A stretch of DNA of 64,000 nucleotides from assembly GCA_027574665.1 (NCBI GenBank), contig CM050668.1, forward strand, positions 7,402,001-7,466,000. Reading direction: 5' to 3'. Made by a program: the position numbers and the translations under genes. The stretch's first letter is position 1; the number at the start of each line of letters is the position of its first letter. Positions 1 through 64,000 of the stretch are shown here, one piece after another. Source of the DNA: Rhynochetos jubatus (taxonomy: Eukaryota > Chordata > Aves > Eurypygiformes > Rhynochetidae). Below the pieces are notes generated by a model. That model had not been told where the DNA came from, did no database searches, and saw only the letters and a list, made by a program, of their open reading frames with translations.

Positions 1-620
1 CCACCAGGGCTGGCCGGGCCTCAGCGGCAGCGCGGAGCGGGGACTCCTTTGGGATGACTCCCCGCGTACCGAGGAAGGGAGGGCGGGAGGAGGCGGCCGC
101 GGGTGAGGCGCAGCAGGGCGCAGGGTGTCTGTGGGGGTGCGCGGCGGCGGGGGGGCGGGGAAGACGGGCGGCGGGGGGGACCGGGACGCGCTCCCGCTCC
201 GGGCACCGGCGGTGGCGGACCGGACCGTCCGTAAGTAAGTACTGCCGCGTGCTATCGGCCCACCCTGTCGGGTCTCGCACTGCCCGGGCGTGCCGCTGCG
301 CCCAAGGTCAGCGCCACCGCGCCCGGCCCCCGGCCCGGCTGTCAGGCCCGGCCCGCGCTGCCGGTGGGGAGCACGGTGGAGGGAGCGGGGCTGCCCGCGG
401 GCACGGCGGTGGCTCCGCCGACGTCGCCGCTGGGGCTCGATTGCAGCAGGCCGGGCTGTGCCGGTGCCCGCCGGGGAGCGGAGCTGCAGCGCCCGTGTGG
501 CCCCGGGGCTGGGGAGGCCCTACAGCGGGTACCGGGCGGGGTGTCTTAGGGGAGGCTGCAGGTAAAGGCTGCACGGGTCCCTCAGCCTGGCTGAGGGCTC
601 TGAAGGCTCTCTGAGGCCTC
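1..620 (+). promoter_or_regulatory. AKAP1: CpG-island promoter and non-coding exon 1, copy 1 (truncated)
   Basis: Very GC- and CpG-rich, TATA-less, with an Sp1-type GC box (GGGCGGGG near 153-160). Exon 1 is inferred to end at 230, before GTAAGTAAGTAC. That sequence holds two overlapping donors 4 nt apart (231 and 235). The transcription start cannot be placed. This is the short 5'-UTR form, without the 82-bp segment of copies 3 and 5. Confidence 0.8.
54..230 (+). other. Possible upstream ORF in exon 1, copy 1 (short 5'-UTR form)
   Basis: ATG at 54 opens an Arg/Gly-rich frame through exon 1. If exon 1 splices at 230 to exon 2 at 3520, it continues ATA ATA ACT TAG and stops at 3531, 15 nt before the AKAP1 ATG (62 codons). 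Copies 2 and 4 share this layout (ATG at 16079 and 47179). In copies 3 and 5 the 82-bp segment shifts the frame and the ORF stops inside exon 1 (31070-31204 in copy 3). Whether the ATG is transcribed depends on the unknown start site. Confidence 0.4.
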
Positions 621-3519
621 AGCTAAAGATGGGGCTTTTGTGTGTCCATGTGCACGTTACTGCTTGTTTCCCAGCCAGGCGGGGGCAAAGTCAATTAGCA
701 CAGTCAGGAGAGAAGCAGCTGTGCTGACCAGAGGAATGCTGGGAGCTGGAATCAAACGTGATTCATTCCCGCTGCCAACCGTGCTGCAGCTACTTAGCAA
801 TGAAAGCGAGAGGTGACCCAGGTGTTGCAGGCTGGGCAGTAACGAGGAAGGTGCCTGGTGTTGTCCCTTGTGCTCTGGTATGGCAAGGCTTGCTGTGTTA
901 CGGAAACAGCCGCTCAAAACTGTGCTTAGCAAACTCTGTACGTCGCGGTGACTGCTGTTTGCTTGTAAGCCAGCAGGGAATATCGTCAGGAGCCAGGGAA
1001 TTGAATTCTCTTGCTACTGAGGAAGTAATGCAGCCTTGCTTTCCTGGAAGAACCCGTGTTGTTTGACTTTCTTAGTTTTGTTTCTTTCTTTGCCCCTTCC
1101 TCCCCCTCCTTGAAGCAAGGCAGACCCAAGGTCCTCGCGCTGCAGGACTGGGCAACTTGATCTGTGTCTGGCCACGTTCTTTGTCACAGTCCAGGAAGTT
1201 ACAGCGTGAAGCAAGGAGACAGGACGGACAGGCCTCTGGGTAGGGGCATCTTTGTCCCGAGTTAACTGCAGTAGTAGGAAACGACAAGAGCAGCTGCCCT
1301 TGAGCACAGTCCATCTGCTGTGGCTGGGTAAGGGGCTGCAGCATGGCAGTAGTTCTGGCTGTCTGTGTTTCCAGGCTGAGGTGGTGCCTTGGTCAGGCTG
1401 GCAGTTGTGCTGGTCCCTGCTGAGTGTTACCAGGGCCTCTGTGGACTTTGTGTCAGGTGAAAGGAAAGGGCTCGTTGCTGGGGAAAGTAGTAGCAGGAGA
1501 CAGTAACTGTACTTTTCTGCTGTTTGCTGGAGACGGTAACTGTACGTTTCTGCTGTTTGCTTTGTGCCTGCGAATGATCTACTGAGTTCCAGCCCCGCAC
1601 ATGTGTGCAGAATAGCCGAGGAAGAGCACGGGGCGTGCTGGAGTGCCGCACAACTGCTCGTGAGGGAAGCATGGCCTTTTCTTGGTAGCATGGACCAGGG
1701 CTGTTGAGCCTGAGCTGAGCTTTCTCCTCTTATGGGGAGGGTCACACTGCCACGCAACCTCCTCGGTCCTTAACGAGCTTCTTGTGCAAAAGGCGAACAC
1801 TCTGCAGGCAGCCACTGAGCTACTGCACCCGTCACCTGGTAATGTGAATGTACCTGTGGTTCTGGGAAAGGGTGGTACAGCTTTACTACATGTATTGTGA
1901 TGTCACAGTTTAGTTCGTGATGAGGTCGTTCCCTTGCATGTACTACCCAGTGCACTGGAGGAAACATCCCATTTGAGGTACTAGTACTGAACATCATCAG
2001 CTGCCTAGAAAGCCTTGGCTTTAACATAGGCATTCCACAAGGGCTGAAATGGGACAACAGGAATTCCCCTTGCCATGCAGGGTGTGAGATGCAGGTACTC
2101 ACAGTTCAGATCCACCCCGGTAAGTTCCTGCAGATTCTCTTGGGAGTTAACTGTGACAGGAGTTGGGGGGCTGCAGCCAAGGCTGTTCAGAGCCAGCAGC
2201 AGTTGGTTGCTGCACTGAGACTCTTGTGTTCATTTTGAAAACATTGCAGCTGGACTGCAGGGGTATTTGAGAGCAAGTACGCTTTTGCAGTAGTAGAGTT
2301 ATCTGAAGAGCACAGTGCTTTAAAAGCAACACACCCCACTTATGTACGGCTCTCACCTTCCGTGTGCACTTAACCAATGTGGAAAAGTTATTTAAGGCGT
2401 TTTGCTTTAATTTCTGCTCAGTGAAAATGTAAACAGTAAGAGCTTTGCAGGAAGGCTGTTTTGGGGATATGGGTAACTGTTTAGCTTTGTGTCCCGGCTG
2501 TAGGCTTTTCGTAAGGAGGGGGAAAAGCACGTCAGCCCTGCCTCGTACAACTCAGGGGAAGCTTGTAAATGGGATGAGTCTTGGTGTCCAGTCAGGGAAG
2601 GGTTCGCACACTTCCCAGAGCAAAAAAAGACAGCTTTCAACTCCTGAAAGTCAGAGGAGTAGTAGCCATCAACATTGTAAATCCAGATGTAGAACAAACT
2701 TTGGAGTCTAAGTTCCTAAGTAGCAGTGTCTCTCTCCAGGCTGCTTTTGTTAGATACTGCTATTCTAAGGGTGTTACAGCATATTTGCTCCCTTCACTAC
2801 TGTGAAATCTTGGAGAGGATCTTCTGGTTACTGGGGGACACTTGCTTCATCCATCAGGCTATAGGTACTCTTTGTTTAGGAGTTCCTAGGCTGTGGGTGT
2901 GAAAGTAAATGGAGAAGCTGCGTGTTGCTGGGTATCTCCTACCTCACCGCAGACCTCAGTCGTGTGCCTGCACGCCAGCCTCTTGCAGTGCTGTGAGGAC
3001 TTTGCAAAGCACTTTTACCTTCAGCGGGCTGTTTGTGGTTTAGGGGAGTGTGTGTTGTCAACCTGTGAAACGCTGGGGGCTGTGATGCTGTGTTTCACGC
3101 AGAGAGCTGGGGAGACCTGCAGCGTATCAAGCCCCTGTCTCCACACGCTTGTGGTAGAGGTGTGTTGTGAACCCAGCCTGGTGCTGGAGAACCACGCGGT
3201 GCTGGATGCCGTCCTTGTGGGTAGTACTGAGCTGCAAAGGCGAGACAGGAGGGAGAAGGTGAAACTGTTTTAAGTGTGAAAGTGAGGTGAAGTTGAGGAG
3301 TAGCATGGTGGGAAATGTCCAGATATCCCTAGTCAGAGGTCAGGCTAAGTCACAGGTAAGGTTCTGTGCTCTGCTGGTAGAGCAGACACGTGAATTTAGA
3401 GAGTCTGGAAAACAAGCCTGTTCATGCTAATAGAAATAACTTGAGGCATTTATGAAACTTTAGCCTTCCTGTTACCTTCCCTGTGACTATTTTAATGTTG
3501 TTTCTGTTTCTCCTTCTAG
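231..3519 (+). other. AKAP1: Intron 1, copy 1
   Basis: Runs from GTAAGT to CTTCTAG. Apart from the island tail and a 33-bp tandem duplication at 1496-1561, I see no gene, tRNA or recognisable transposon. The open frames on both strands lack recognisable features, and copy-to-copy changes in them are not constrained. The same holds in copies 2-4. Confidence 0.8.
1496..1561 (+). repeat. 33-bp tandem duplication in intron 1, copy 1
   Basis: Two 33-bp units beginning GGAGACAGTAACTGTAC and GGAGACGGTAACTGTAC, each ending CTGCTGTTTGCT. Counterparts lie at 17534-17599, 32594-32659, 48634-48699 and 63694-63759, so the duplication predates the amplification. In the B copies both units read GACAGTAAC. 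Confidence 0.85.
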
Positions 3520-5179
3520 ATAATAACTTAGCTGAGGCTCTGTAAAATGGCGTTACACTTGCCCAGAGTCATCCGTTATGCCATACCTGGAGTGCTGGCA
3601 TTACTTGGCTGGTGGGTCTATTGCCATAGAAAAAAGCGTGCAAGCTGTCACGACGAACAAGAAACAGCCATTGAAGAAGTGCCAGAGGATGGTGCATCAC
3701 CCGAACCGGAAGCATGCGTTTCTCGAAGACAGCTTTTCTCATCGGGAGAGGAATGCTCAGAGAACGAAACCTCGACCCCCCTGCTGTCAGCAGGGTTGCT
3801 GCCGCCCCATCTTTGTCAAGCTCAGGAGAGGCTAGATCTCTCGGAGGACCTTGCAGACCTATCAGTGATGACAGTTCCATACAGCGCCCTTGAGGACGAC
3901 AGTGGAAAACTAGACTCAATAGGATCTGCAGAGGAAAGCAGTGTCCCTGCTAGTGTCTCTCTCCCTCTGATCTCAAAGACCGCAGAGTGTCACAGCAGCA
4001 CTGCCGTGAGCCTTAGGCAGGGTTCAAGCTGTGCTGCAAAGCAAGAGCAGTGGCCGTCAGCGACACTGCCGCACGAGTCTTTGGGAATCACGGAGATCAG
4101 CAGTGCAGAGCAGTCAGACGGTTCTTCATTTAAGCTCCCCAAAGAAAGCCAGATGGCAGAAGTTGTGCTGCCGAATACCGGCTCTGTGACAGCTCTTTGC
4201 TTGGGATTGGAGAAGGAAGCCGATGCCCCACAAGCCTTTCTCAGTAATGAAGCAGAAGTTGTATCAAGTCACAAGGATTCTGCAGTGAACGCGCTACCGG
4301 ATAGTTTGGAGCCTGGCTGCTTGGAGCAGTCCAGGGAAGAAGTGACGTTTGACTCAACTGCCAGTACTGTACCTGTGTGTCAGGAGGACTCACAGCCAAA
4401 AGGAGATGAATCGGAAGGAGAGCAGATTGCAGGAGTGAGTTTGGACAAGGAAGAAATTGAGAAAATCGAGCAGGTGGCAAAGCAGGCAGTTTCCGAGGTC
4501 ATTTTGGCAGCAACTGAGGAAGTGCTGTCTGGTCCTGCGAGTGATGTTTCCACTCAGAGCTGCCAGGCCGCTGCCAGCCGAGCTGAGAGACCTCGGGAGG
4601 TGGCAGGTGTTGTTTCCTCTGGTCAGATGCTTGCGGAGAAAGCTACGGCAGCCGATGAGAACACTTCTGTGAGGAGTGGGGCTGTGGTACTGGCATCCCC
4701 ACGGACAGAGGAACGGGATCAGAGTGTGACAGATCCCAGCCGTTTAATACATGACCGTTTATCCAGCCCTGTTCAGGGAAATCCGAAAGACTGTCAGAAA
4801 AGGAAGAGTGTGTGCAGCAAGTCCCAAGGAGTTGATCGTACCCCCGTGGAAAACCATGGAGGGTCACTGGAAAAGTTGCCTTGGGTTATGGAGGACTCTG
4901 GGTGCAGCACATCCGCATCGGAAGGTGGAGCGAGTGTGGAGGACCCATTGCAGAACACGATGCTGTCTGACGCATCGGGCCAGCATTCGGACTCACTGAG
5001 CCTGTCTACAAGCCGAGACACGTCTGCTGAAGATTGCTCAGTACCAAGTGGAAAACCTACCCTAAAGCTGCCGGACAACAGCCAAGAGCCGTACAGTAAT
5101 GGGATACTGAGAGAGGATGGTCCGCACTTGCCTCATGAGTGTAGCAGGGCAGAAGGGGTGGATGGAGATAACTTAAAAG
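3520..5179 (+). CDS. AKAP1: AKAP1 copy 1, exon 2 (coding from 3547, residues 1-545)
   Basis: Large first coding exon, as in vertebrate AKAP1. The acceptor is a pyrimidine-rich tract ending in CTTCTAG at 3519. The first 27 bases are 5' UTR and contain the in-frame stop TAG (3529-3531) of an upstream ORF. The donor after AAAAG is GTAAGG at 5180. It encodes the anchor (residues 1-31), about 270 Ser/Glu-rich and probably disordered residues, the PKA-binding helix (304-327) and further disordered sequence. It ends in phase 1. Equivalent exons lie at 19560-21219, 34620-36279 and 50660-52319. Confidence 0.95.
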
Positions 5180-8100
5180 GTAAGGGATTTGAAAATCTTC
5201 CTGTAAAAATGTGGGGAACAAGCTTTTTATGTGCTGTAACCCTCCTGCTTCAGAACATGTTCAGATGAATCCTCTTTGTGTTTCACTTCCCCAGCGGGTG
5301 AGTATTTAGCCTGCATGCGCAGGTGGGCATGGATTTTCTCTTAGAATTCCCATCCCTGTAGGGTCCAGGGTTAGCCGGGTGATCTTCAGAGTATACTGCA
5401 AAGGCGTGAGCAGGCTGGTCCCCTTTCAACACAAAGCTTGTTGTCCAAAGCCAAGCATCTGCTTGAGTAGCCCAGTGAAACGGATGTAGGCCAGACCTTG
5501 CTGGTTTGAGACCTGCTAATACGAAGGGCTGCTGCTTTGGCCCAGGCAGCCTCTGGGAAGCACTGGGTTCTTACCTGTGTTTATGGGCCGCTGCTGAACG
5601 GAAGCGGTAAGGCAGGTTTCTGAGGTGCTGCTGGATGAAGCAGGGAAGTGCTCTGATGAATTGTGATAAAATCAGTTGGTTGCAGACAAATTACCCTGAA
5701 GCCTTTTTGCTTGGATGGGTAGGTGCGTGCCGAGAAATCCCAGCAGGGAGCAATATTCGTGGAGCTCCCGCATCTGCCTGTGTTGCTTTTGCATTCTGGC
5801 TGCTGTGTGCCTGGTAGAATGCAAAGCTGTCTGAGCAATGTTAACCTGTGTGACCTTGGGGATGGATGTTAAAATCCCTTTCTAGGACCCCACGGTGTCA
5901 ACAGCCCTTAATGACAAAATGTCTTTTGTAATTGCTGCGGGGTAGTTGGAACGCTGCTTGTTGCAAGACCTGGGGATTGAGTTTGCCACAGAACGTTTTT
6001 CACTAGTGAGAGTAACCATAGGAAGAAAGTGATTTTGCCTTGTGAGTGCTGGTGTGACGAGGAGGTACAGGAGTGTTGTGGAGCCTGGTGATGGCAAGGG
6101 CTGAAAGCTCTGCACTGAGGAGAGGGGATGCTATAGCAGGTAAAGGTGAGAATCTCGGATAAGAGGTCCTACAGCTGACCTTCACACCCAGGCTGTGAGA
6201 CTGAAATCCTTCTTGCCCAGGAAGTCCCTGGCAAATGCCTGCACCATTTGCCTTTGAGTGTGTGAGCATCTGTGCTGTGTCACAAGTTAAGATGTGGCAA
6301 GTGTGAAGCTGTTGGGTTCGTTTTTCTCTTTGTTTCGGCACTGGGGGGTCTGAATAGTTGCAAGCAAGGATCTTCATAATCTGCTTGTTAATCTGGAGGA
6401 AGGATCAACCTTGTGTTACACCGACTGTACCTGGGATGTGACCAGGAGGTAGCCGTTTGAGTTTGTCTCCTTCCCAGCCAGAAATGTTCCTGGTATCCCC
6501 TGATGGTTTGGGAACAAAACATAGCTGAGCTCTGGCACCTTGTTTCTTCAAGCGTATGACAAATTTGGGCAAGAGGCAATCCCCCAGGACAGCTAGTAGT
6601 GCCCTTGGGTCAGTGTGCAAGACGTGTTGGGGCAGGAATGTGCAAAGAGCGGATGAATAGGTGGCATGTCCCTCCACGCTGAACTCCCCCTGAAGAGCGC
6701 TGTGTGAGCCATGAGGAAAACACAAAATACCTTGCTGCAGCAGAGGCTCGGTGTTGGTGTTAGCACAGTTCTCATGCAGCTGGTAGCTGTGACTTGGTGT
6801 CTTGTCTCTGCTGCTGTGTAAGGTGTCACCGTGTGTGAAGGACTCCTGCTGGACTCAGGCCTCCTTCTGTTGCATGCCCAGCGGTGGGCAGGTTTTTCTG
6901 CAGGAATAAAAGGAGCCTTTCAGTAGGCTGTGTGTGATGGGACTCTACCCTTTCTGAAATACTGGAGAAACTGATACAGGGACATCCCAACTGAATGCGT
7001 AGGAAGAGCTGCATGTTTCTCTAGGAAGCGATGTATTTTCGTGGTCTTGTGACTGGCAGCTGGCCTGGGTGAGTTGTGAGTTGTCTGAATGCTGACACAT
7101 GGACATGTCTTGTAGGTTTGGATGTAACTCGCATGGATTTCACGGACAGTGGCTGTGCCATGAGGAAGACAGTGGCTCGCCGGAGCTCTAAGCTAGAAGA
7201 CAAATCCGGCAAGTTCGACCTCGTTATCTGGGAAATAGAGGTCCCAAAGGTAAGCTGTCTCTGTCTTTATAGCGAGCTTTCTTTTGAGCTGAGAGGTTGT
7301 GTTTTTTAGGACTGCGCTCATACCTTCTTCCCCCCTTTGAAGATGCAAAATCACCTGTGGCTGTCCTGCACGACTTTGCTCTTGCAGTTCTGCTTCTGAG
7401 CAGACCCGAATACTGACGGCCAGAAACGTGAGACAGCAGCTCCCAGCAGGATGAGCGTGCTGCCTTGAGTGCTTGGGGGCTGTGATCCCAGTGAAGAAAT
7501 GTAACGTGTGTTTTCATGGATCAGTAAAACACAGGCTAAGAGAAGTTCTACAGCAAAAAAAAACCCCTTTCAGTGGTTAGCGAAGACAGGCTGTCAGTTC
7601 TCTTAAAGTAGCTAACTTGGCATTGTCTAGGATTATCCGTACTGACTTGGGCCCAACACTTCTGCTCCGGTCTCTGGTCTCTGACAGCAAGTGGTGGCAG
7701 GTGCCTATGGAAGAGTGGAAGCGAGAGGGCTTGCACAGACATCGCAGCTTCATCGCCCTGCGCAGGACATCCCAGCTGTCCAGGGACTCTAGTCGAATGG
7801 GCATGATAGCCTGGCTTACTCTCCAATGAATTTGTCTACTCCCTTTCTAATTAGCTTATTTTAAAATTGCTGGGACTTAGTATTTCAAATCGGAATGAAA
7901 ATTGCATGTAGCCTGCTGGGGAAAACAAAACAGGTGGAAGACTGGGAGAGGACTCGACCCGACTGTAGGAAGACAGCAGCGTTTATCAGGCCTGTTTTTG
8001 TCCCATCGTGCCTTTGTGTCATTTGACAAGGGATGAAGATGGATCTGTCAAAATGAGCTCTACTTTCTGATCTGTATCTCCCGTGACTTAGCGCAGACCA

Positions 8101-11100
8101 GCTGAACGCTGCACTAGTTCATCATTGCCTTGTATTTATCCTGCCTGGCCCTACGCTACAGGAAATGGGAACGTAGGTGAAATAAGCCACAGAGAACACG
8201 TTTGATCTACATTTCTCTTCCTGACTGTTGCTTTCTTATCCCTTTCCTAAAGGACTTAGTTGGCCAATTGATTGGCAAACAAGGAAGATTCATGAACTTC
8301 TTGAGGCAATCCTCTGGTGCCAAGATTTATGTCTCGACACTACCTTATTTCCATGACTCCCAAGTCTGTCACATCGAAGGTAAGTGACAATGTCTCTTTA
8401 TTCGTGGTCTAATATGTAGCCTGGGGACCTCAGTTAGGTAGGCAAGGAATTCTGACAGATTTAGTGGCGTCATGAGTCCAGTGCTTTACAAAACGTTTCC
8501 ACTCAGTGCTGTTACAGTAGAGGTATATGCCAAGTTGCCTGTGCCTTGGCATGTGCGCCTTCTATTCTAGAGGTAGGGATGCATTTTAACGTCTTCAAGC
8601 TGCTGTAGTTTAACAAGCACCTCTTGCAGGATCGCTGCAGGCTTGAAGGAGGAGCTATGGGATGTGTATTAGCAAATATGGTTTTGAGTGTGAAGAATAC
8701 GAGATTAATTGTGGCTGGAAAATACCTGCCAGTGACTTGGGTTCATACTGGAGGCTGAAGCTGTTGAAACTGGGGCCTGGCGGTCAGAGTTGCTCACGTT
8801 GGCCTGATATGGCCAATCTATTAATACTTCAGTTATTGGCGTAGCACAGAAGGCTTCTGGTAGCTATGTTGCTTCACATGGTGGGGCTGTCCTCAGCATA
8901 CCTATGCTACAGACTTTCTGTGGGATTTTTGTCTTCCAGGCTCTGCGCATCAAGTAGAAACAGTACTGAGCCTGATTGGGAAGAAATTTAAGGAGCTGTG
9001 TCTCACCAACATCTACGGCCTACCTCCACCAACACTACTGACGCTCCATTCCATCCTTATGACCGCCTGGGTAAGTCCCAGCTTGCCGGCTGTGCTGATG
9101 TCAGGGCGGAAGGCCACGGTTGGTCACTGCCATCGTAGTATGCTGTGTCCACGTGGCTGGTTCACCGATGCCCTCAGAAAGAGTTTGGTTTTGTGTGGCT
9201 ATCTGTTGTCCAGCTTGTGTAATTCTTACAGATGAGATTTATCTGGTGGTTTCTGACACCTCGATAACCCTTGTCCCTTTGCTGCCACATGGGTGTCTAT
9301 CCCCTACCTCCACTGAGACGGTAGACCGACGGACCTTGCCAGCACGCTGACCCTCAAACATTGAGGTGCTGCCCCCAGGCTTCTCTCTAGCAAGCCTGGT
9401 TTTACCCCTTTCTCCCTTCAAATCTAGTTTAAAACCATTTCAGTGAGCCCTGCTCACTCCTGCACAAAGATCCTTTTCTCCCTTTGAGACAGGGGACACC
9501 AGGCTTGGAGGCAGGTGTTGATCCGCTGTCTGCTCTTGTTCCTTTCCTCGTCCTTCCCTGCCAGTGGAAGGATAGAGGAGAACACTGCCCGTGCTCCTGA
9601 TCCTTTAGCAGTCATCCCAAAGCCCTGAAGTCTCTCGATTGCCCTTGGACTGTGGCAGAATGTTGCACCAAACTGGGCACGCATCTGGCCCGGTAGGCTT
9701 TAACCTACAGGCTCAATGTTTGCCTAAGGAAGTAACACTTCAGTCTCCAGCCGAGTTGGTTGTCTGCTCCCTCCGCTTAAAGGCGTGTTGTGGTTTAATC
9801 TCGGCTAGCAACAGGCCGTGAAGCCACCCTCACCCCCCTCTCCACTCCAACGGAGGGACAGAATTGGAGGAAAAAGGCAAAGAGGCTCATAAAATTGAGA
9901 TAAGAACGATTTGCTAATTGAATATAAGTGAATTACATATATATGAGAATATATAAAAATACTACTACTAATAAGTAATTAAAATAATAGAAAATAAACG
10001 TGTGATGCAATTGCTCACCACCCGCCGGGTAGTGACATAGCTCACACACAGCCAGGTCCTGGTAAGTGAAGAGTCAGAGCCAGCGAGCCCGAGAGCCAGA
10101 GCCTGAGAGCAATCACAGCAGAGTCCAAGCGAGCCCCACGAGCGACAGCAGGATGAGAAAGAGCTGGCTGACCCACCAGCTCATGAACATGCAAGCAAAG
10201 GAATTAGCAAAGCAGCTAACGAAGGAGTTCAGGAGCTGACAGAAGAGTTGGCAAAGGAGCAAAAAGAGTTCCCGAATGAGTTGCGGCCCCTGAGCCCACT
10301 CCCCGCTTCTGTACCGAGCCTGATGTGCTATGGAATGAAATCCTCCTCTGGTCAGTGTGGGTCAGCTGTCTGAACTGTGTGTGTCCCCACACTGCCTCTA
10401 GTGAGAAAGTTGGAAATGCAGCTGGGAAAGGCCTTGAATTTGGTGCAAGCACTCCCCAGCACCAGCTGAAAAGACACCTTATCAGTAGTTTTCTCAGGGT
10501 AAATCCAGAAACCCAGCTTCATAGCAGCCACTGTGAAGAGTTAACTCTTTGCTGACTAAAACCAGCACAGGGCTCTTTGCTGTGAGGTGGAAATGCCACT
10601 GATCCGTTGCCATTACTGGCATTGTCCCTAAATCCTGAAGCTGGTCTTCTCAAAATGTTTCAATTCCTTATGGTATTTAATTGCACTAAAAGGAGGTTTT
10701 CATGTCAGCGTTTCCCAGAAGAGTTTTCATGCTGCTTTTGCTATATGACACCTAGAAACACTGGACCTTTAGAATCTATAAAGTAACACTGCATGGAACT
10801 GTCTCCTTGGATGTGAAGACAGGCTTTGTTCTGGAGAACTGAATTTATGCTGGGAAATCCAAACCATGTTGGTTGTATTCCAAGCACAGTAGTGCTCGGA
10901 AGCTGCCCAACCCAATGGCTCCAGCAGCCAGGGTGCAAATGACTTGGAAAATGAGGCCTCTGTGACAAATCTTGGCCAATCCCTGCAAAGATTACCTTGA
11001 TGTTTAAAAACCCGTGGGCAGGGAATCCTTGCGAGGTGCGCTGTGTGGAGAGCGCAGCATGACTTGAGCTGCATCGTTTCTGACTCTGCTCGCTGATCTC

Positions 11101-15517: not shown

Positions 15518-15631
15518 CAGTGTGCCAGATGCCTCGACAGCTCTCTCAGCGGAGAAAAACAAAATCTTATTTTGCGCTATTACAATTTGGTTTGGCAACC
15601 TGTTTACACCTGAATGTAAGTTTTGTGGTCC

Positions 15632-15637
15632 ATTAAA
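15632..15637 (+). terminator. Poly(A) signal ATTAAA, AKAP1 copy 1
   Basis: ATTAAA 115 bp after the stop codon, followed by a GT-rich stretch (TGTGTTGCTG). It implies a short 3' UTR ending near 15655. The remaining stretch to the next CpG island (about 15660-15868) holds no feature I recognise. Confidence 0.6.
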
Positions 15638-15867
15638 ATCTGTGTTGCTGAACTGTTACCATTTCACTAGAAACACATAGCTCGTCTCAGTGAAAGGCAG
15701 GGTGTTAAAAGCCATAATGACAGATACCGTAGCTTTAAAGCAAAAAAACCTCCTCCCTGGCCTCTACTCAAATGGAATGCAAAAACCCTTAAACCCTGGG
15801 GCTTGCTGGAAGGTAGCAAGTGTCCCTGAAAGGGGAACTGTGGTTGCGTTTTGGTTCAAGATGTAGA

Positions 15868-30508: not shown

Positions 30509-30622
30509 CAGTGTGCCAGATGCCTCGACAGCTCTCTCAGCGGAGAAAAACAAAATCTTATTTTGCGCTATTACAATTTGGTTTGGCAACCTGTTTACAC
30601 CTGAATGTAAGTTTTGTGGTCC

Positions 30623-30628
30623 ATTAAA
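30623..30628 (+). terminator. Poly(A) signal ATTAAA, AKAP1 copy 2
   Basis: Same position relative to the stop codon as in copy 1. The next CpG island begins near 30859. Confidence 0.6.
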
Positions 30629-46617: not shown

Positions 46618-46731
46618 CAGTGTGCCAGATGCCTCGACAGCTCTCTCAGCGGAGAAAAACAAAATCTTATTTTGCGCTATTACAATTTGGTTTGGCAACC
46701 TGTTTACACCTGAATGTAAGTTTTGTGGTCC

Positions 46732-46737
46732 ATTAAA
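46732..46737 (+). terminator. Poly(A) signal ATTAAA, AKAP1 copy 3
   Basis: Same context as copy 1. The next CpG island begins near 46968. Confidence 0.6.
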
Positions 46738-46967
46738 ATCTGTGTTGCTGAACTGTTACCATTTCACTAGAAACACATAGCTCGTCTCAGTGAAAGGCAG
46801 GGTGTTAAAAGCCATAATGACAGATACCGTAGCTTTAAAGCAAAAAAACCTCCTCCCTGGCCTCTACTCAAATGGAATGCAAAAACCCTTAAACCCTGGG
46901 GCTTGCTGGAAGGTAGCAAGTGTCCCTGAAAGGGGAACTGTGGTTGCGTTTTGGTTCAAGATGTAGA

Positions 46968-53600: not shown

Positions 53601-56600
53601 CAGTGAAGAAATGTAACGTGTGTTTTCATGGATCAGTAAAACACAGGCTAAGAGAAGTTCTACAGCAAAAAAAAAACCCCTTTCAGTGGTTAGCGAAGTC
53701 AGGCTGTCAGTTCTCTTAAAGTAGCTAACTTGGCATTGTCTAGGATTATCCGTACTGACTTGGGCCCAACACTTCTGCTCCGGTCTCTGGTCTCTGACAG
53801 CAAGTGGTGGCAGGTGCCTACGGAAGAGTGGAAGCGAGAGGGCTTGCACAGACATCGCAGCTTCATCGCCCTGCGCAGGACATCCCAGCTGTCCAGGGAC
53901 TCTAGTCGAATGGGCATGATAGCCTGGCTTACTCTCCAATGAATTTGTCTACTCCCTTTCTAATTAGCTTATTTTAAAATTGCTGGGACTTAGTATTTCA
54001 AATCGGAATGAAAATTGCATGTAGCCTGCTGGGGAAAACAAAACAGGTGGAAGACTGGGAGAGGACTCGACCCGACTGTAGGAAGACAGCAGCGTTTATC
54101 AGGCCTGTTTTTGTCCCATCGTGCCTTTGTGTCATTTGACAAGGGATGAAGATGGATCTGTCAAAATGAGCTCTACTTTCTGATCTGTATCTCCCGTGAC
54201 TTAGCGCAGACCAGCTGAACGCTGCACTAGTTCATCATTGCCTTGTATTTATCCTGCCTGGCCCTACGCTACAGGAAATGGGAACGTAGGTGAAATAAGC
54301 CACAGAGAACACGTTTGATCTACATTTCTCTTCCTGACTGTTGCTTTCTTATCCCTTTCCTAAAGGACTTAGTTGGCCAATTGATTGGCAAACGAGGAAG
54401 ATTCATGAACTTCTTGAGGCAATCCTCTGGTGCCAAGATTTATGTCTCGACACTACCTTATTTCCATGACTCCCAAGTCTGTCACATCGAAGGTAAGTGC
54501 AATGTCTCTTTATTCGTGGTCTAATATGTAGCCTGGGGACCTCAGTTAGGTAGGCAAGGAATTCTGACAGATTTAGTGGCGTCATGAGTCCAGTGCTTTA
54601 CAAAACATTTCCACTCAGTGCTGTTACAGTAGAGGTATATGCCAAGTCGCCTGTGCCTTGGCATGTGCGCCTTCTGTTCTAGAGGTAGGGATGCATTTTA
54701 ACGTCTTCAAGCTGCTGTAGTTTAACAAGCACCTCTTGCAGGATCGCTGCAGGCTTGAAGGAGGAGCTATGGGATGTGTATTAGCAAATATGGTTTTGAG
54801 TGTGAAGAATACGAGATTAATTGTGGCTGGAAAATACCTGCCAGTGACTTGGGTTCATACTGGAGGCTGAAGCTGTTGAAACTGGGGCCTGGCGGTCAGA
54901 GTTGCTCACGTTGGCCTGATATGGCCAATCTATTAATACTTCAGTTATTGGCGTAGCACAGAAGGCTTCTGGTAGCTATATTGCTTCACATGGTGGGGCT
55001 GTCCTCAGCATACCTATGCTACAGACTTTCTGTGGGATTTTTGTCTTCCAGGCTCTGCGCATCAAGTAGAAACAGTACTGAGCCTGATTGGGAAGAAATT
55101 TAAGGAGCTGTGTCTCACCAACATCTACGGCCTACCTCCACCAACACTACTGACGCTCCATTCCATCCTTATGACCGCCTGGGTAAGTCCCAGCTTGCCG
55201 GCTGTGCTGATGTCAGGGCGGAAGGCCACGGTTGGTCACTGCCATCATAGTATGCTGTGTCCATGTGGCTGGTTCACCGATGCCCTCAGAAAGAGTTTGG
55301 CTTTGTGTGGCTATCTGTTGTCCAGCTTGTGTAATTCTTACAGATGAGATTTATCTGGTGGTTTCTGACACCTCGATAACCCTTGTCCCTTTGCTGCCAC
55401 ATGGGTGTCTATCCCCTACCTCCACTGAGACGGTAGACCGACGGACCTTGCCAGCACGCTGACCCTCAAACATTGAGGTGCTGCCCCCAGGCTTCTCTCT
55501 AGCAAGCCTGGTTTTACCCCTTTCTCCCTTCAAATCTAGTTTAAAACCATTTCAGTGAGCCCTGCTCACTCCTGCACAAAGATCCTTTTCTCCCTTTGAG
55601 ACAGGGGACACCAGGCTTGGAGGCAGGTGTTGATCCGCTGTCTGCTCTTGTTCCTTTCCTCGTCCTTCCCTGCCAGTGGAAGGATAGAGGAGAACACTGC
55701 CCGTGCTCCTGATCCTTTAGCAGTCATCCCAAAGCCCTGAAGTCTCTCGATTGCCCTTGGACTGTGGCAGAATGTTGCACCAAACTGGGCACGCATCTGG
55801 CCCGGTAGGCTTTAACCTACAGGCTCAATGTTTGCCTAAGGAAGTAACACTTCAGTCTCCAGCCGAGTTGGTTGTCTGCTCCCTCCGCTTAAAGGCGTGT
55901 TGTGGTTTAATCTCGGCTAGCAACAGGCCTCTCCACTCCAATGGAGGGACAGAATTGGAGGAAAAAGGCAAAGAGGCTCATAAAATTGAGATAAGAGCGA
56001 TTTGCTAATTGAATATAAGTGAATTACATATATATGAGAATATATAAAAATACTACTACTAATAAGTAATTAAAATAATAGAAAATAAACATGTGATACA
56101 ATTGCTCACCACCCGCCGGGTAGTGACATAGCTCACACACAGCCAGGTCCTGGTAAGTGAAGAGTCAGAGCCAGCGAGCCCGAGAGCCAGAGCCTGAGAG
56201 CAATCACAGCAGAGTCCAAGCGAGCCCCACGAGCGACAGCAGGATGAGAAAGGGCTGGCTGACCCACCAGCTCATGAACATGCAAGCAAAGGAATTAGCA
56301 AAGCAGCTAACGAAGGAGTTCAGGAGCTGACAGAAGAGTTGGCAAAGGAGCAAAAAGAGTTCCCGAATGAGTTGCGGCCCCTGAGCCCACTCCCCGCTTC
56401 TGTACCGAGCCTGATGTGCTATGGAATGAAATCCTCCTCTGGTCAGTGTGGGTCAGCTGTCTGAACTGTGTGTGTCCCCACACTGCCTCTAGTGAGAAAG
56501 TTGGAAATGCAGCTGGGAAAGGCCTTGAATTTGGTGCAAGCACTCCCCAGCACCAGCTGAAAAGACACCTTATCAGTAGTTTTCTCAGGGTAAATCCAGA

Positions 56601-59600
56601 AACCCAGCTTCATAGCAGCCACTGTGAAGAGTTAACTCTTTGCTGACTAAAACCAGCACAGGGCTCTTTGCTGTGAGGTGGAAATGCCACTGATCCGTTG
56701 CCATTACTGGCATTGTCCCTAAATCCTGAAGCTGGTCTTCTCAAAATGTTTCAATTCCTTATGGTATTTAATTGCACTAAAAGGAGGTTTTCATGTCAGC
56801 GTTTCCCAGAAGAGTTTTCATGCTGCTTTTGCTATATGACACCTAGAAACACTGGACCTTTAGAATCTATAAAGTAACACTGCATGGAACTGTCTCCTTG
56901 GATGTGAAGACAGGCTTTGTTCTGGAGAACTGAATTTATGCTGGGAAATCCAAACCATGTTGGTTGTATTCCAAGCACAGTAGTGCTCGGAAGCTGCCCA
57001 ACCCAATGGCTCCAGCGGCCAGGGTGCAGATGACTTGGAAAATGAGGCCTCTGTGACAAATCTTGGCCAATCCCTGCAAAGATTACCTTGATGTTTAAAA
57101 ACCCGTGGGCAGGGAATCCTTGCGAGGTGCGCTGTGTGGAGAGCGCAGCATGACTTGAGCTGCATCGTTTCTGACTCTGCTCGCTGATCTCTTGGGTAAA
57201 TAAGGAGTTGCTGGTGGAACACGGGGTTGCTGGGAACGAAGCTTGTGTTGCGATGAACTCCGAGAGTTTCCTTTCTCCATGTGGCAGCTGTTGCTCCCGG
57301 ATGGAGTCACCGTAGAGGTGGTTGTGGCGCACCAAGTCGACGCGGGACACATGTTTCTGCATCAGCACACCCACCCCACTTTCCATGTCCTGCGTAGCCT
57401 GGACCAGCAGATGTATGCCTGCTATTCTCATCCCGCGGTTCCGACCCTGCCGACTCCAGTAGAAGGCAAGTAACCTGGTTGCTCACAAATTGTTCCGCTG
57501 AGGAACTTCTAGGGTCACGCGAAAGCACGATGCCCCTGAGTTAGGCTTGGGAAGTTTCCCCGTAGATGGGAATGTGATAGTTCGCTTGTCATTTCATCTC
57601 TCTTTAAGCTGACGCCAGAGTACAGACGTTGCTCTCCTCTTCCTTACCTCACACGTCCCTGGAGTACCTCCCCAGCCACCTAGTTCCATGTTGAAGTTCA
57701 GGATAAAATAGTCTGTCTCAGGTTATTTCTCATCAACTTGGCATCTGGTGTGCTTTTGCTGACAGTGTGGAGCTACTCCCAAATCTTCATAGTGTCACTC
57801 TCAGCACACGGTGTAAAGCGGCGGGTACACCCCGTGGAAAGGGGTTATTAGTGCTGAGCTTCCTTTTTGGAAGCAGATACCTCGCTGTTAATGACCCGAG
57901 GCTGGAAGGGAGCTGGATACTTGGGTAGAGCAGGACGGTAGTGACTGACAGACTGGAGAGTAAACTCCCCTCTCTGTGTCCCAGCTGCAGGCTTGGTGTG
58001 GTGGGGGTGTGGGTGGTGTTGAAAGGAGATGGGAGCAGCATAGGAAATGCTGTTGATTCTCCGTAGATGGCTGGGCAGCGGTAGTGATGTCTGAAGTTCT
58101 GATTCCTGGAAACCCACTCACGCCGAGCCTTTCTTCTCTGCACTCCTGTGTTTTGCAGTCGGTATTATCTGCGCAGCTCCAGGCCTGGATGGGGCATGGT
58201 TACGGGCTCAAGTCATTAGCTACTTTGAAGAGACGGATGAAGTGGAGCTCAGATACGTGGACTACGGAGGATACGACAAAGTGAAGATTGACACGCTCAG
58301 ACAAATCAGGTCTTTAGCTGCTCTTCCGTGGCCTGAGGCCGTGTCTGGGTTGAACCTTCATCGGAGGCATCCGTATCGTTTGAATTGCTCATAGGTTTTT
58401 CCACAGCTGAAGCGGGAAGTGGCAGAAAGGTTTGTCTGGGCAGCGGGCGTGGGTTCCTTGGGAGCGGAGCACAGTAAGCTCTTGCGAGGCTTTTTGAAGG
58501 GGAGTGGAGAGGAAATTGCAGCTTCTGCCACTTCAGCGTGGAAGCTGAGCAAAAGGATGCCGACAGGAGGCCCCGAAGTGTAGTTCATTGATGAGCTAGG
58601 AATAAGATTCGCATTCCCTACGCCCCAGCCCCGTTGGCTGGGAGAGCTGTATTGGATGAGGGGTTTCTTCCACGAGCCCATTAAATACGCGATTGTGCCC
58701 CAGAGGTGGGGGGAAAAAAGCAGTACAGCCACCCTTATGGGGGTGGGTTTTACGGGGAGCCCGGTCCAACCTGACACGCGAATCAGACAATTCACTGCTG
58801 TTGCTTACACTGTCATCAGTTTTAAACTGAATTCCTGCTAGAGCAACTGATGAATCAACGTCACCTTCAAGAATACAGGAGTAACTGAAAGCCAGGTTCT
58901 TAATCTGATTGATTCTCTTTTCTTTAAGGTCTGATTTTTTATCACTACCTTTCCAAGGAGCGGAAGTTTTACTAGACAACGTGGTGCCACTTCCAGGTAA
59001 TGGGGCTTTCGAGGTGTGCTGTTGGCACTCCTCTGGCAGGTTGCAGAGCATGCCAGCTGTGTATAAGCAATGATTCTGTCTAAACCTTCCCCCTCCTTTT
59101 GCAAGTGCAGCCTCTGGGGTGACTAGAGCAAGAATTAGAAAGAACTGTATGTGATTCTTTGACATGTGCTGGCGTGGCATAACCGCTCAGACTGCAGGGG
59201 AAAGAGCGGAAATGTCTAGACTTTCTCGCACGGAGGAGAGAATGAATTATTCTCCTAGGCACAAGTTGGCAGGACTGGCAGGTTATAGATGAAGTAGCTG
59301 TCCCTACTCTGCCACCTTCCGTGCTCTTTCTGCCACCCAGAGTAAATGCAAACCTAGTTTTTGGTCTCCTACACAATTACCTGGCGCTTTCCAAGTGATG
59401 TGTGTAGTGCTGTGTTCAAAACGCTGCCCTCCAAGCACTGGAAGAATGTCGGTCACTGCCTAGAAGTGCTTTCTGGTTTGCTTTTTTCTTTCTAGTGGCG
59501 CTGGAGATGTGTGCTGTACTGGTGTCAAAAGCTGCCCTTCTGGGTGCGGCAGGGAGGGGTGGCTGTAGGAGCCAGGGGTCAGGCCAGGTTTCCCCACAGG

Positions 59601-61608
59601 GCTTTGGGGCTGGCAGGACTCGGGGCACAGGCCCTGCCAAGGCTGTAGATGTAGGGCGAGGTTTAAGCTGCTTCTAAGCAGAAGTTGGTGTTTTGCACGT
59701 TCCCCGAGATGATCGACCTCCTTCGGTATTTCTGGGGTTGTAAGGAGTCCCCTTGCTGCTGCAGGTGGCCCTCGGGGTGGGGAGCACAAAGGAGAAACTT
59801 TATTTTGCAGCAATTTGGTAGGAAATAAGCAACTGTCCTCCAAAATGAAGACACTTCTGTCCGGTCTAGGGGGCAGGTTGTACCCGTACTGCCTGGGACG
59901 CAGGGGGTTCCGGCTGCCTCGCAGGCGTGGAGTTAGCAGCAGGACCCGTGTAAGCTGTGCAGGCTGAGACATGAGCTGCCAGTGCTGGCAAAGGGCATGT
60001 GCCACCGCTCAGGTGCCAGCCAGCCTGCGGTACAAATGCTTTTGAGTCCCTGTTTACGCTATTGCACTCCGCGCGGGGTCGGTAAAGTCCTGAGGTCCCC
60101 GAGCTTAGTTTATTAAGGATCAAAATACTAATGGCGGCTCAACGGAGCTGCACAAGTACACTTTTCTGTCTTTCAAGCCTCCTAATTCATCAGCCACGTA
60201 TGTTCACGGTAACTCAGCTAGTGGCTTTGGAAAGCACTTCCCCCTTTCCCTTCAGCAGCCCAGTGGGCACAATACCTGTGTGACCTCCAGCTTAACAGAC
60301 GGGTTTCAGCAGCTGCCTACAGCAACAGTAGGTGAGGATTCTCTGGCCTAAGTTCCGTAGGAGGTCAGACAAGATGAGCTTGGTAGTCCCTGCTGGCTTT
60401 TAGAGCCTGAGCATCTCTCATTTGGTTTCTCCTGCTCTTTCCTTTCCACAGGCGAGGATCACTTTTCCTCTGAAGCCGACGCCGCTGTTGCCGAGATGAG
60501 CAGAGGCGCAGTCCTAGCGGCACAGGTACGTGAGGGCTGTCTGGAACAGCCGATTCGACTGCTGCTGTTATCCTCTCTGCCCCTAGCACGCTCTGTATGT
60601 TGCAGTCAGAACCAAAGCCGGAGCCTGTAGGCCTGGCTGCCGGGCAGGGTTCTTGCGGAGAAATGTTGGTGCTGAGACCTCCCTTGTGCAGCGTCAGCAC
60701 CGCTCGGGGCTGTGTGGCTGGGAAGGGCCGAGCAGTCCCTCTTGTTGCTGATGCGGGCAGGGAGGAAGGGCACCGGAACGGCTTTACAGAGCACAAAGTG
60801 GCCTCTTGTCCAGTGGACCACGTATTCACCTGGGTGTGCGCTGCTTTGCCAGTCTCAGCTGTCTTTGCAACACCGGTGCCAGGGGTCTGGCCTCTGGCTG
60901 GCCAGAGGGAGAAGCGAGGCTTCTGGCAGTGTCCCAGAGGCTTCTGTGTGCAGTGCCTGACCTCGGGGAAGAGGCGCTGACCTCTCGTGCCGTGCTTCTA
61001 ATGCTGGCTGTAGCTCTCCATGTCAGTCAGCTGGGACAAGCGGGAAACTGATGGTGGTTGAGCCGCTCAATCTCAGTTTGCTTTGGTTTCCTGCAGCGCT
61101 CAAACGCATCACGAATCTTGCAAGGGTATGGATTTGAGTGGCTAGAGCAAACCTGCCAGCAGGGTGTCCCGCTGCCTGGTGGCAGGAGCCACGTTTCCTC
61201 TTGCCTACACCGAAGTATTGACTCCGATAGGCAGTGCGTGATGCTCGCCTTGCATCCTCCGTGGCTCAGACCCGAATGGCTGCATGTTGATGTTTTTCTG
61301 TGTTTGCAGGTCACAAATTACGACGGTGCGACAGGTCTGCCGCTGATACAGCTGTGGAACTTGATGGGAGACGAGGTGCGCATGTTGCCATGTGTATTTT
61401 TTCAACACTTCACAAAGTGAACTGTTCGTGCTAATCACTGTTAGCGTTCGTGGTTACGCAGACTTTCTGTTGTTGGTCAGGAACTTGCTGATGTTACTTG
61501 CCGGAGGTTTGTTCACCTTTCTACTGTTTTCTTTCCACCTCTCTTTAGGTGGTGTCTATAAACCGAACTCTGGTGGAACGAGGATTTGCTCAGTGGCTCG
61601 ACTACTAG
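50687..61608 (+). CDS. AKAP1: AKAP1 copy 4 (type B, 873 aa)
   Basis: The join is 50687-52319, 53228-53361, 54366-54492, 55052-55182, 57288-57465, 58159-58309, 58929-58996, 60452-60525, 61310-61375, 61549-61608, exactly 31,100 bp after copy 2. The frame is intact. It has the type B residues V514, G541, N568 and R599, and one private change, G157 (R elsewhere). I see no other coding difference from copy 2. Confidence 0.95.
52812..52837. repeat. Palindromic deletion scar, copy 4 intron 2
   Basis: Identical to the copy 2 junction, so the event predates the duplication of the A-B dimer. Confidence 0.9.
55898..56660 (-). mobile_element. Solo LTR, copy 4 (21 bp shorter)
   Basis: B form, as in copy 2. 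Confidence 0.7.
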
Positions 61609-61722
61609 CAGTGTGCCAGATGCCTCGACAGCTCTCTCAGCGGAGAAAAACAAAATCTTATTTTGCGCTATTACAATTTGGTTTGGCAACCTGTTTACAC
61701 CTGAATGTAAGTTTTGTGGTCC

Positions 61723-61728
61723 ATTAAA
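61723..61728 (+). terminator. Poly(A) signal ATTAAA, AKAP1 copy 4
   Basis: Same context as copy 1. The next CpG island begins near 61959. Confidence 0.6.
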
Positions 61729-61958
61729 ATCTGTGTTGCTGAACTGTTACCATTTCACTAGAAACACATAGCTCGTCTCAGTGAAAGGCAGGGTGTTAAA
61801 AGCCATAATGACAGATACCGTAGCTTTAAAGCAAAAAAACCTCCTCCCTGGCCTCTACTCAAATGGAATGCAAAAACCCTTAAACCCTGGGGCTTGCTGG
61901 AAGGTAGCAAGTGTCCCTGAAAGGGGAACTGTGGTTGCGTTTTGGTTCAAGATGTAGA

Positions 61959-62810
61959 ATGCCCCATGACCACCGCCGGAGCGGGAAAGCCCCTACGACA
62001 GCAGCTCCCGGGCTGGCTGAGGCCCGGCCAGGCTGAGGCCCGGCCTGACGCCGCCGAGGCGCTGGGCCGCTCCCTGCCGAGGATGAGGGGCCGCGCAGCG
62101 GCCCGCCCCGCCGCCGCCACCAGGGCTGGCCGGGCCTCAGCGGCAGCGCGGAGCGGGGACTCCTTTGGGATGACTCCCCGCGTACCGAGGAAGGGAGGGC
62201 GGGAGGAGGCGGCTCGGCGGCGGCCCACGCGCCCTTCCCGGGCCATGAGAACAGGGAGGGCCCGGCCCCCGAAGCCGGTGCCCTCCGCCGGCGGCCGCGG
62301 GTGAGGCGCAGCAGTGCGCAGGGTGTCTGGGGGGGTGCGCAGCGGCGGGGGGGCGGGGAAGACGGGCGGCGGGGGGGACCGGGACGCGCTCCCGCTCCGG
62401 GCACCGGCGGTGGCGGACCGGACCGTCCGTAAGTAAGTACTGCCGCGGGCTATCGGCCCACCCTGTCGGGTCTCGCACTGCCCGGGCGTGCCGCTGCGCA
62501 CAAGGTCAGCGCCACCGCGCCCGGCCCCCGGCCCGGCTGTCAGGCCCGGCCCGCGCTGCCGGTGGGGAGCACGGTGGAGGGAGCGGGGCTGCCCGCGGGC
62601 ACGGCGGTGGCTCCGCCGACGTCGCCGCTGGGGCTCGATTGCAGCAGGCCGGGCTGTGCCGGTGCCCGCCGGGGAGCGGAGCTGCAGCGCCCGTGTGGCC
62701 CCGGGGCTGGGGAGGCCCTACAGCGGGTACCGGGCGGGGTGTCTTAGGGGAGGCTGCAGGTAAAGGCTGCACGGGTCCCTCAGCCTGGCTGAGGGCTCTG
62801 AAGGCTCTCT
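61959..62810 (+). promoter_or_regulatory. AKAP1: CpG-island promoter and exon 1, copy 5 (long form)
   Basis: Long form with the 82-bp segment (62214-62295). E2F-like GCGGGAAA lies at 61981-61988. Exon 1 ends at 62428. Private change near 62341 (A for G in the GC-rich tract). It drives a fifth gene whose coding part lies beyond the window. Confidence 0.8.
62214..62295 (+). other. 82-bp 5'-UTR segment, copy 5
   Basis: Same segment as in copy 3, exactly 31,100 bp downstream. Confidence 0.85.
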
Positions 62811-64000
62811 GAGGCCTCAGCTAAAGATGGGGCTTTTGTGTGTCCATGTGCACATTACTGCTTGTTTCCCAGCCAGGCGGGGGCAAAGTCAATTAGCACA
62901 GTCAGGAGAGAAGCAGCTGTGCCGGCCAGAGGAATGCTGGGAGCTGGAATCAAACGTGATTCATTCCCGCTGCCAACCGTGCTGCAGCTACTTAGCAATG
63001 AAAGCGAGAGGTGACCCAGGTGTTGCAGGCTGGGCAGTAACGAGGAAGGTGCCTGGTGTTGTCCCTTGTGCTCTGGTATGGCAAGGCTTGCTGTGTTACG
63101 GAAACAGCCGCTCAAAACTGTGCTTAGCAAACTCTGTATGTCGCGGTGACTGCTGTTTGCTTGTAAGCCAGCAGGGAATATCGTCAGGAGCCAGGGAATT
63201 GAATTCTCTTGCTACTGAGGAAGTAATGCAGCCTTGCTTTCCTGGAAGAACCCGTGTTGTTTGACTTTCTTAGTTTTGTTTCTTTCTTTGCCCCTTCCTC
63301 CCCCTCCTTGAAGCAAGGCAGACCCAAGGTCCTCGCGCTGCAGGACTGGGCAACTTGATCTGGGTCTGGCCACGTTCTTTGTCACAGTCCAGGAAGTTAC
63401 AGCGTGAAGCAGGGAGACAGGACGGACAGGCCTCTGGGTAGGGGCATCTTTGTCACGAGTTACCTGCAGTAGTAGGAAACGACAAGAGCAGCTGCCCTTG
63501 AGCACAGTCCATCTGCTGTGGCCGGGTAAGGGGCTGCAGCATGGCAGTAGTTCTGGCTGTCTGTGTTTCCAGGGTGAGGTGGTGCCTTGGTCAGGCTGGC
63601 AGTTGTGCTGGTCCCTGCTGAGTGTTACCAGGGCCTCTGTGGACTTTGTGTCAGGTGAAAGGAAAGGGCTCGTTGCTGGGGAAAGTAGTAGCAGGAGACA
63701 GTAACTGTACTTTTCTGCTGTTTGCTGGAGACGGTAACTGTACGTTTCTGCTGTTTGCTTTGTGCCTGCGAATGATCTACTGAGTTCCAGCCCCGCACAT
63801 GTGTGCAGAATAGCCGAGGAAGAGCACGGGGCGTGTTGGAGTGCCGCACAACTGCTCGTGAGGGAAGCATGGCCTTTTCTTGGTAGCATGGACCAGGGCT
63901 GTTGAACCTGAGCTGAGCTTTCTCCTCTTATGGGGAGGGTCACACTGCCACGCAACCTCCTCGGTCCTTAACGAGCTTCTTGTGCAAAAGGCGAACACTC

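Follow-up and report, generated by a model that had tools for sequence, protein, structure and literature searches.

AKAP1 tethers signalling proteins and RNA to mitochondria, and birds usually carry the gene once. Coding sequence can also form the unit of a macrosatellite, of which DUX4/D4Z4 is an example. The AKAP1 array of the kagu (Rhynochetos jubatus) resembles coding macrosatellites of this kind in having a unit of several kb, present in tens of copies, head to tail and with an open reading frame in each, but the kagu unit is a complete gene of ten coding exons from a conserved family. Ampliconic multicopy gene families occur on mammalian sex chromosomes (PMC6772104). The kagu array is like them in having copies more than 99% identical, in a unit that takes in the gene together with its 5' region, in showing signs that the copies exchange sequence, and in its adjoining amplified sequence of the HSF family. 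It is unlike them in being apparently autosomal, because its contig also carries MRPS23, and in having a mitochondrial scaffold gene as its founder.

In other birds, AKAP1-like proteins are numerous in the gannet Morus bassanus and the buzzard Buteo buteo, and one or two extra are present in cranes, Colius, Porphyrio and Amazona. The gannet and buzzards seem to have multiplied AKAP1 separately, so not every bird carries a single AKAP1, and the supposition of the sequence-only reading of this locus that AKAP1 is normally single copy in other vertebrates is not supported. The many AKAP1-derived proteins of Morus and Buteo share with the kagu copies an AKAP1-like N-terminus, KH and Tudor, but arose within their own lineages. 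Moreover, the two examples read, Buteo P0160 (542 aa) and crane P0171 (505 aa), are without the middle part that contains the PKA-binding helix, whereas the kagu copies, at 873 aa, keep it.

The kagu array comprises 25 copies over approximately 437 kb in the assembly, at 7.266-7.703 Mb of contig C23, and the window, the whole stretch of 64,000 bp analysed here, is its middle. The exon bearing the ATG gives 25 near-identical matches, as do the last exons with the 3' end, and one contig (C23) holds them all; only one further, divergent copy was found in the genome search. Four AKAP1 genes lie complete within the window, arranged head to tail, and are followed by the beginning of a fifth unit. 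The ATG-bearing exons of copies 1 to 4 begin at 3547, 19587, 34647 and 50687, and the units measured from junction to junction are 14,991, 16,109 and 14,991 bp; unit lengths vary among the 25 copies. Each unit carries a complete gene, a CpG-rich 5' region and a poly(A) signal. At the junction, sequence approximately 250 bp beyond the ATTAAA at 15632 is fused to the CpG-rich region. The features, all on the forward strand, are as follows.

1-15882, forward: AKAP1 copy 1, A type; the unit begins left of the window
3547-5179, 7116-7249, 8253-8379, 8940-9070, 11197-11374, forward: copy 1 coding exons 1-5
5673-6700, forward: 1,028-bp intron segment, marker of A copies; in copies 1 and 3, missing from 2 and 4
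7144-38243, forward: recent 31,100-bp duplication, approximate extent (presumed left edge)
12068-12218, 12838-12905, 14361-14434, 15219-15284, 15458-15517, forward: copy 1 coding exons 6-10
15853-15912, forward: tandem junction; identical sequence recurs at 15883, 30874, 46983 and 61974
15883-30873, forward: 14,991-bp unit (B), CpG-rich promoter-like region followed by AKAP1 copy 2
19587-21219 to 30449-30508, forward: copy 2 coding exons, first to last
30874-46982, forward: 16,109-bp unit (A), AKAP1 copy 3 with a promoter-like region
34647-36279 to 46558-46617, forward: copy 3 coding exons, first to last
46983-61973, forward: 14,991-bp unit (B), AKAP1 copy 4 with a promoter-like region
50687-52319 to 61549-61608, forward: copy 4 coding exons, first to last
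61974-64000, forward: beginning of the fifth unit, comprising a promoter-like region and 5' sequence; the ATG exon of this unit is beyond the window, at C23:7467747

The sequence-only reading had proposed coding-competent AKAP1 genes with their own promoters, repeated head to tail in units of roughly 16.1 kb (A) and 14,991 bp (B). The unit sizes agree with the junctions, and the promoter-like region in each unit is consistent with separate promoters. The gene identity and orientation are borne out. Ten exons are collinear with flamingo AKAP1 P0004 from its residue 1, with a predicted hydrophobic N-terminus. Spliced copy 1 matches Pfam KH_1 (5.1e-11) and TUDOR (3.8e-18), both past the cut-off and in the KH-then-Tudor order of the AKAP1 family. 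By alignment, the region of the putative PKA RII-binding helix is present in the kagu copies. Coding competence extends beyond the window: its four copies each have ten coding exons, a CDS of 2,622 bp and no internal stops, and all 12 completely read copies have an open frame through the ten coding exons, normal splice sites and a product of 873 aa. For the other 13 copies, the ATG and last exons were located by search, and in one of these the reading took in coding exons 1-4. Six NCBI cluster representatives from the array were examined and are N- or C-terminal pieces of AKAP1, and no full-length kagu AKAP1 model was among the matches listed (best 120 of 174 and best 120 of 235). Annotation pipelines may split such arrays into gene fragments.

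What kind of array is this? We consider it probable that it is an autosomal ampliconic AKAP1 array whose copies unequal exchange and conversion hold close to one another, and that it is possibly germline-related. Its many tandem copies, more than 99% identical, are what is expected of an ampliconic array with concerted evolution. The sequence-only reading had instead described a higher-order array of A-B dimers of 31,100 bp, and copies 1 to 4, taken by themselves, do run A B A B. In self-comparison 92-32900 aligns with 31190-64000 at 99.85% identity, with 48 mismatches and 1 gap. The offset, claimed to be exactly 31,100, is so beyond approximately 2,575 and is 31,098 before it. A and B copies are 99.2-99.4% identical in long pieces, interrupted by the 1,028-bp segment. 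Because the divergent copy at C23:1119039 has this segment too (86%), B lacks it by deletion, and this deletion is the main difference between A and B. Along the 25 copies, however, the order is ABAABAABABBAAABBAABAAAABB. The 15 A copies and 10 B copies do not alternate regularly, and as many as four of one type stand in succession. A multi-unit block in register is therefore seen over four copies only, the dimer is not the organising unit, and array-wide A-B dimers are ruled out in this assembly; that some true higher-order array underlies the order is very improbable. The low divergence is likewise confined to the window's pairs, with 14 differences between copies 1 and 3 and 8 between copies 2 and 4, against 27-74 in the other pairs among 12 copies. 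Nor does the recent duplication take in everything that had been claimed for it. It stands for one A-B pair, but copy 1 is left out at its 5' end: among the 50 columns that differ between the two window dimers, 33 are in positions 92-7143 and only 17 in the remaining 25.8 kb, and the left edge was placed at 7143/7144 because mismatches drop there. The window dimer is a single local, recent duplication of approximately 31 kb inside a recombining array.

Could the assembler have multiplied one or a few AKAP1 genes, for example by stitching haplotypes or collapsed reads? Near-identical neighbours such as the pairs with 8 and 14 differences are hard to assemble, and among the 12 copies compared the four in the window are without any private site. 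The other eight, however, have 5-13 private sites each, the 25 copies differ in unit length, no N interrupts the 264 kb read, and the edge of the array is structured, with left-flank sequence recurring beyond the HSF5-like blocks. Such an artefact is unlikely, but the exact copy number of 25 may be wrong. The 12 copies are also mosaics of one another's variants and so exchange sequence, although chimeric joins could produce such a mosaic. The four-gamete test gives at least 50 exchange intervals from 103 informative sites, and 2,606 of 5,253 site pairs are incompatible; both counts would be raised by misassembly and by repeated mutation of a site, especially at CpG. A stronger contender, which we nevertheless regard as improbable, is a neutral, selfish expansion: a young macrosatellite-like repeat that contains a gene, with most copies silent and one or few serving the cell. 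CpG transitions account for 58 of the 173 two-state variable sites, about one third, as expected if the copies are methylated, and copies of the nearby HSF5-like sequence occur elsewhere too, at sites in which no AKAP1 was found. Of the coding variable sites, 21 are replacement and 4 silent, where 19.1 replacements are expected without constraint (p=0.48). This fits an absence of constraint on amino-acid changes among the copies, so the open frames may reflect youth. The silent rate is indistinguishable from the noncoding rate (p=0.08). Against neutrality, stops, frameshifts and splice losses are absent from all 12 copies, and there are two modest signals. There are 0 coding indels, where the 13-14 noncoding gap events would predict 3.6-3.9 (p=0.02-0.03). 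Coding variability is approximately 0.6 of noncoding (25/2,622 versus 148/9,461 sites; p=0.02, with nine variable sites in gapped columns excluded). Selection on the array copies is weakly indicated by these comparisons.

The sole other AKAP1 found in the kagu genome, the divergent copy, is a pseudogene approximately 6 Mb from the array, with frame breaks, in-frame stops and coding exons 2-4 of ten missing. It is 339 kb from MRPS23, near which the ancestral site is expected, and probably marks that site; no MSI2 was recognised between it and MRPS23 (150 of 331 RRM candidates scored). A multi-copy, HSF5-like sequence flanks both the array and the dead copy. Its ORFs have no Pfam match at 0.01, and one of them gave HSF at 0.076 in a loose scan and HSF5 at 1.6e-13 in a PDB search. 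With this sequence beside it, the dead copy could itself be a moved copy. The sequence-only reading missed the full set of 25 copies, the HSF5-like sequence on the flanks and the pseudogene at what is probably the ancestral site.

An ampliconic array of the kind we favour could have begun when AKAP1 and the neighbouring HSF5-like sequence were copied between the ancestral site, close to MRPS23, and a location approximately 6 Mb off. The copy near MRPS23 would then have decayed, and intron 1 of the other copy would have lost approximately 4.4 kb. The unit would have expanded by unequal crossing-over, with conversion keeping the copies alike. One block of two units (A+B) was duplicated very recently. 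More tentatively, the copies may be expressed, raising AKAP1 dosage or serving germ cells. A germ-cell role is proposed because HSF5 and S-AKAP84, a short form of AKAP1, act in male germ cells. If AKAP1 survives only as the array, the kagu would be a natural test of extra AKAP1 dosage, and the array would also test how concerted evolution homogenises a gene family on an ordinary chromosome.

Literature searches on AKAP1 duplication, expansion or the germline-restricted or W chromosome in birds gave nothing on point among the matches listed, the one match checked by passage concerning AKAP13, and those on the kagu genome listed nothing relevant. If birds amplified AKAP1 on several separate occasions, once next to sequence of HSF5, a testis gene, this would suggest a common selective cause. 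A broader account, which we offer as a speculation with the balance of probability against it, is that birds multiply AKAP1 repeatedly. In the kagu a moved copy would have replaced the dying ancestral gene and become an autosomal amplicon of approximately 25 genes beside amplified HSF5-like sequence; the separate gannet and buzzard amplifications would have lost the PKA-binding part; and AKAP1 would be targeted repeatedly by germline conflict or by dosage selection over mitochondria-bound RNA, possibly with an unresolved array in the sunbittern too. In the tree, Eurypyga groups with the kagu array with 97% support. This would date the duplication before the kagu-sunbittern split, which conflicts with a noncoding distance of only 0.094 between the array and the dead copy. 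Among the matches listed, the sunbittern has a single AKAP1, and the contig that carries it is 1.6 kb long. In birds, AKAP1 serves poorly as a single-copy marker. In Morus, an AKAP1 (P0040) is also present on a 13.2-Mb contig.

The kagu locus is best read as an ampliconic array on an autosome, built of complete AKAP1 genes, which would have taken the place of the ancestral one. The sequence-only reading had described whole genes repeated head to tail, alternating between A and B units after a recent duplication of the A-B dimer; the observation was confirmed, and its interpretation stood only in part. Self-alignment bears out the tandem repeat and the A-B offset of 31,100 bp, with window 92–32900 matching 31190–64000 at 99.85% identity and A matching B at 99.2–99.4% over long pieces. 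Tandem junctions at window 15883, 30874, 46983 and 61974 give units of 14,991, 16,109 and 14,991 bp, A and B together making 31,100 bp. Each unit contains a CpG-rich region (GC about 0.8 and CpG ratio 0.8–0.97 at window 16001–16600) and ten coding exons whose order matches flamingo AKAP1. At the 3' end the stop codon ends at 15517, ATTAAA lies at 15632, and about 250 bp further the junction leads into the next CpG-rich region. Splicing gives a protein of 873 residues in which both a KH and a Tudor domain are present. In this assembly the 12 fully read copies are open; the copies may be expressed and functional. All introns of the 12 fully read copies are GT-AG except one:

Window 11375, 26366, 42475 and 57466: GC donor after the exon ending at 11374 or its counterpart, in 12 of 12 fully read copies

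NCBI models, compared through six representatives of AKAP1-like protein clusters, divide the gene in two: P0001–P0003 stop in the intron that precedes the KH exon, and P0158, P0166 and P0170 carry the KH and Tudor part. Every unit has, in the intron that follows the exon with its end at 9070, a stretch (window 9786, 24798, 40886, 55898) whose start looks like that of an avian retroviral LTR. A 13-bp G+C-rich tandem repeat was also seen in the B-unit 5' region (window 16338–16377 and 47438–47477) and was not reported in A units. No publication on the kagu AKAP1 array was found among the open-licence PMC papers searched.

How far does the array extend? In the 1.33-Gb assembly of 148 contigs, a DNA search placed 25 ATG-exon matches of 99–100% identity on contig C23 (14,705,844 bases), from 7274778 to 7693700, and a search with the final exons plus 3' end gave 25 matches across the same stretch. 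The array is bounded at C23:7266524 and 7703376, about 437 kb, of which C23:7242001–7506000 (0 N) and the right edge were read directly and the 187 kb between were located by search only. The first copy has an intron 1 longer by 4.4 kb. After it comes a 36.8-kb stretch (C23:7287111–7323883) lacking a complete AKAP1, which is largely a 13.1-kb repeat, also contains AKAP1 pieces (three inverted, one direct), and has at its end a copy of 2.86 kb of the left flank at 99.8% identity. Given this composition, a larger module of left flank, AKAP1 copy and right flank probably underwent duplication at some time. At C23:7681352–7692069, located by search, the spacing before the last copy is about 6 kb above the usual, perhaps through a long intron 1 like that of the first.

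The dimer does not hold as the array-wide unit, since the order of the 25 copies is irregular: A B A A B A A B A B B A A A B B A A B A A A A B B. The 1,028-bp segment marking A is present in 15 of the 25 and also, at 86%, in the divergent copy elsewhere on C23, so the B type arose by deletion. Twelve copies were compared over about 12–13 kb, a span that opens 1 kb ahead of the ATG and closes 200 bp beyond the stop; they gave 43–74 differing sites per pair. The exceptions relate to the window: copies 1 and 3 differ at 14 sites and copies 2 and 4 at 8, and the latter two, the window's B copies, differ from the next B at 31 and 27. The two window dimers differ in 50 columns, 33 of them within the first 7.1 kb. 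The pattern marks a single duplication event of recent date, about 31 kb long, its left edge near window 7144.

The array copies are mosaics of one another, since for 12 copies and 103 informative sites the four-gamete minimum is 50 intervals, a figure that repeated CpG mutation and misassembly can inflate; CpG transitions account for 58 of 173 two-state variable sites. Excluding nine variable sites in gapped columns, coding sequence of the 12 copies is less variable than noncoding (25/2,622 versus 148/9,461; p = 0.02). No coding indel was observed, where the 13 small noncoding gaps, taken alone or together with the 1,028-bp gap, predict 3.6–3.9 (p = 0.03 or 0.02; two alignment-edge gaps excluded). 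The ratio of replacement to silent changes (21:4; 19.1 replacements would be expected if selection were absent, p = 0.48) speaks against protein constraint. Selection on the copies is thus only weakly indicated.

Is an ancestral gene still present? When the ATG exon, the final exons and the 1,028-bp segment served as DNA queries, no intact AKAP1 turned up outside the array, and the only further ATG-exon match, at 87%, is C23:1117509–1119036. This copy (C23:1117394–1127002) has frame breaks and in-frame stops in the first coding exon and a stop in a later exon. The end of the first coding exon and the next three exons, including the KH domain, were not found, nor were exon 1 and the promoter in 4.4 kb read upstream. 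Its product, P0060, is labelled low quality by NCBI. The copy is a pseudogene. At a distance of 339 kb comes MRPS23 (C23:1456154, minus strand), and an RRM match is at C23:1521171 (minus strand). Because these resemble the human order of AKAP1 (+), MSI2, MRPS23 (-), SRSF1 (-), this is probably the ancestral AKAP1 site, which the array would have replaced. MSI2 was not recognised nearby among 150 scored of 331 RRM candidates. COIL is on C22, beside a serine carboxypeptidase match taken as SCPEP1.

Array unit and dead copy are separated by distances of 0.094 in noncoding (6,575 sites) and 0.110 in coding sequence (2,098 sites). In the ATG-exon protein tree the sunbittern Eurypyga groups with the array (97% bootstrap) and the dead copy falls outside, a position to which a decaying copy can be pulled. 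Counts of shared changes are weak evidence: array and Eurypyga 8, array and dead copy 5, dead copy and Eurypyga 1. The sunbittern protein is on a 1,601-base contig, which could be an unresolved repeat or merely poor assembly.

An ORF of the 13.1-kb repeat matches a solved HSF5 chain, 8zys (1.6e-13), and Pfam HSF at only 0.076. HSF5-like DNA lies as follows:

C23 around the array: 13.1-kb-repeat HSF5-like DNA, 4 places
C23 beside the dead AKAP1: 1 place, 80%
C23 10.15–10.17 Mb and 10.58–10.60 Mb: 3 each
C35: 6
C7: at least 10, strands mostly alternating, partial matches of 76–77%
Elsewhere: singly

HSF5-like sequence (C23, C35, C7, C24, C2; L014:493-1266) is a clustered multi-copy family, with mostly alternating strands on C7 as in palindromes. 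HSF5 is reported to be testis-preferential and required for male meiosis (PMC12366260). The HSF5-like sequence is the only hint of a germline link that the analysis itself gave.

AKAP1-like copies are also found in other birds. Among the best 120 of 238 matches, Morus bassanus has 26 AKAP1-like clusters besides P0040, with 58 member sequences (possibly not all Morus) and contigs of 16 different lengths (0.13–2.4 Mb). Among the best 120 of 235, Buteo buteo has five, with longest contigs of 0.41–1.1 Mb, and one more on a 47.8-Mb contig. In a KH-Tudor tree of 36 sequences hand-chosen from the matches, Morus copies group with P0040 (98%) and Buteo copies adjoin the AKAP1 of hawks; those of cranes, Colius and parrots lie near their own groups. 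The deep branches of this tree disagree with accepted bird relations. The placement of the copies suggests separate origins for the Morus, Buteo, crane, Colius and parrot copies; those of cranes could be older than the crane-rail split. Two examples read through, P0160 (Buteo) and P0171 (crane), are without the PKA-binding middle. Gannet (P0117, P0126–P0154) and buzzard (P0160, P0162–P0165) each have a large AKAP1-like family of their own.
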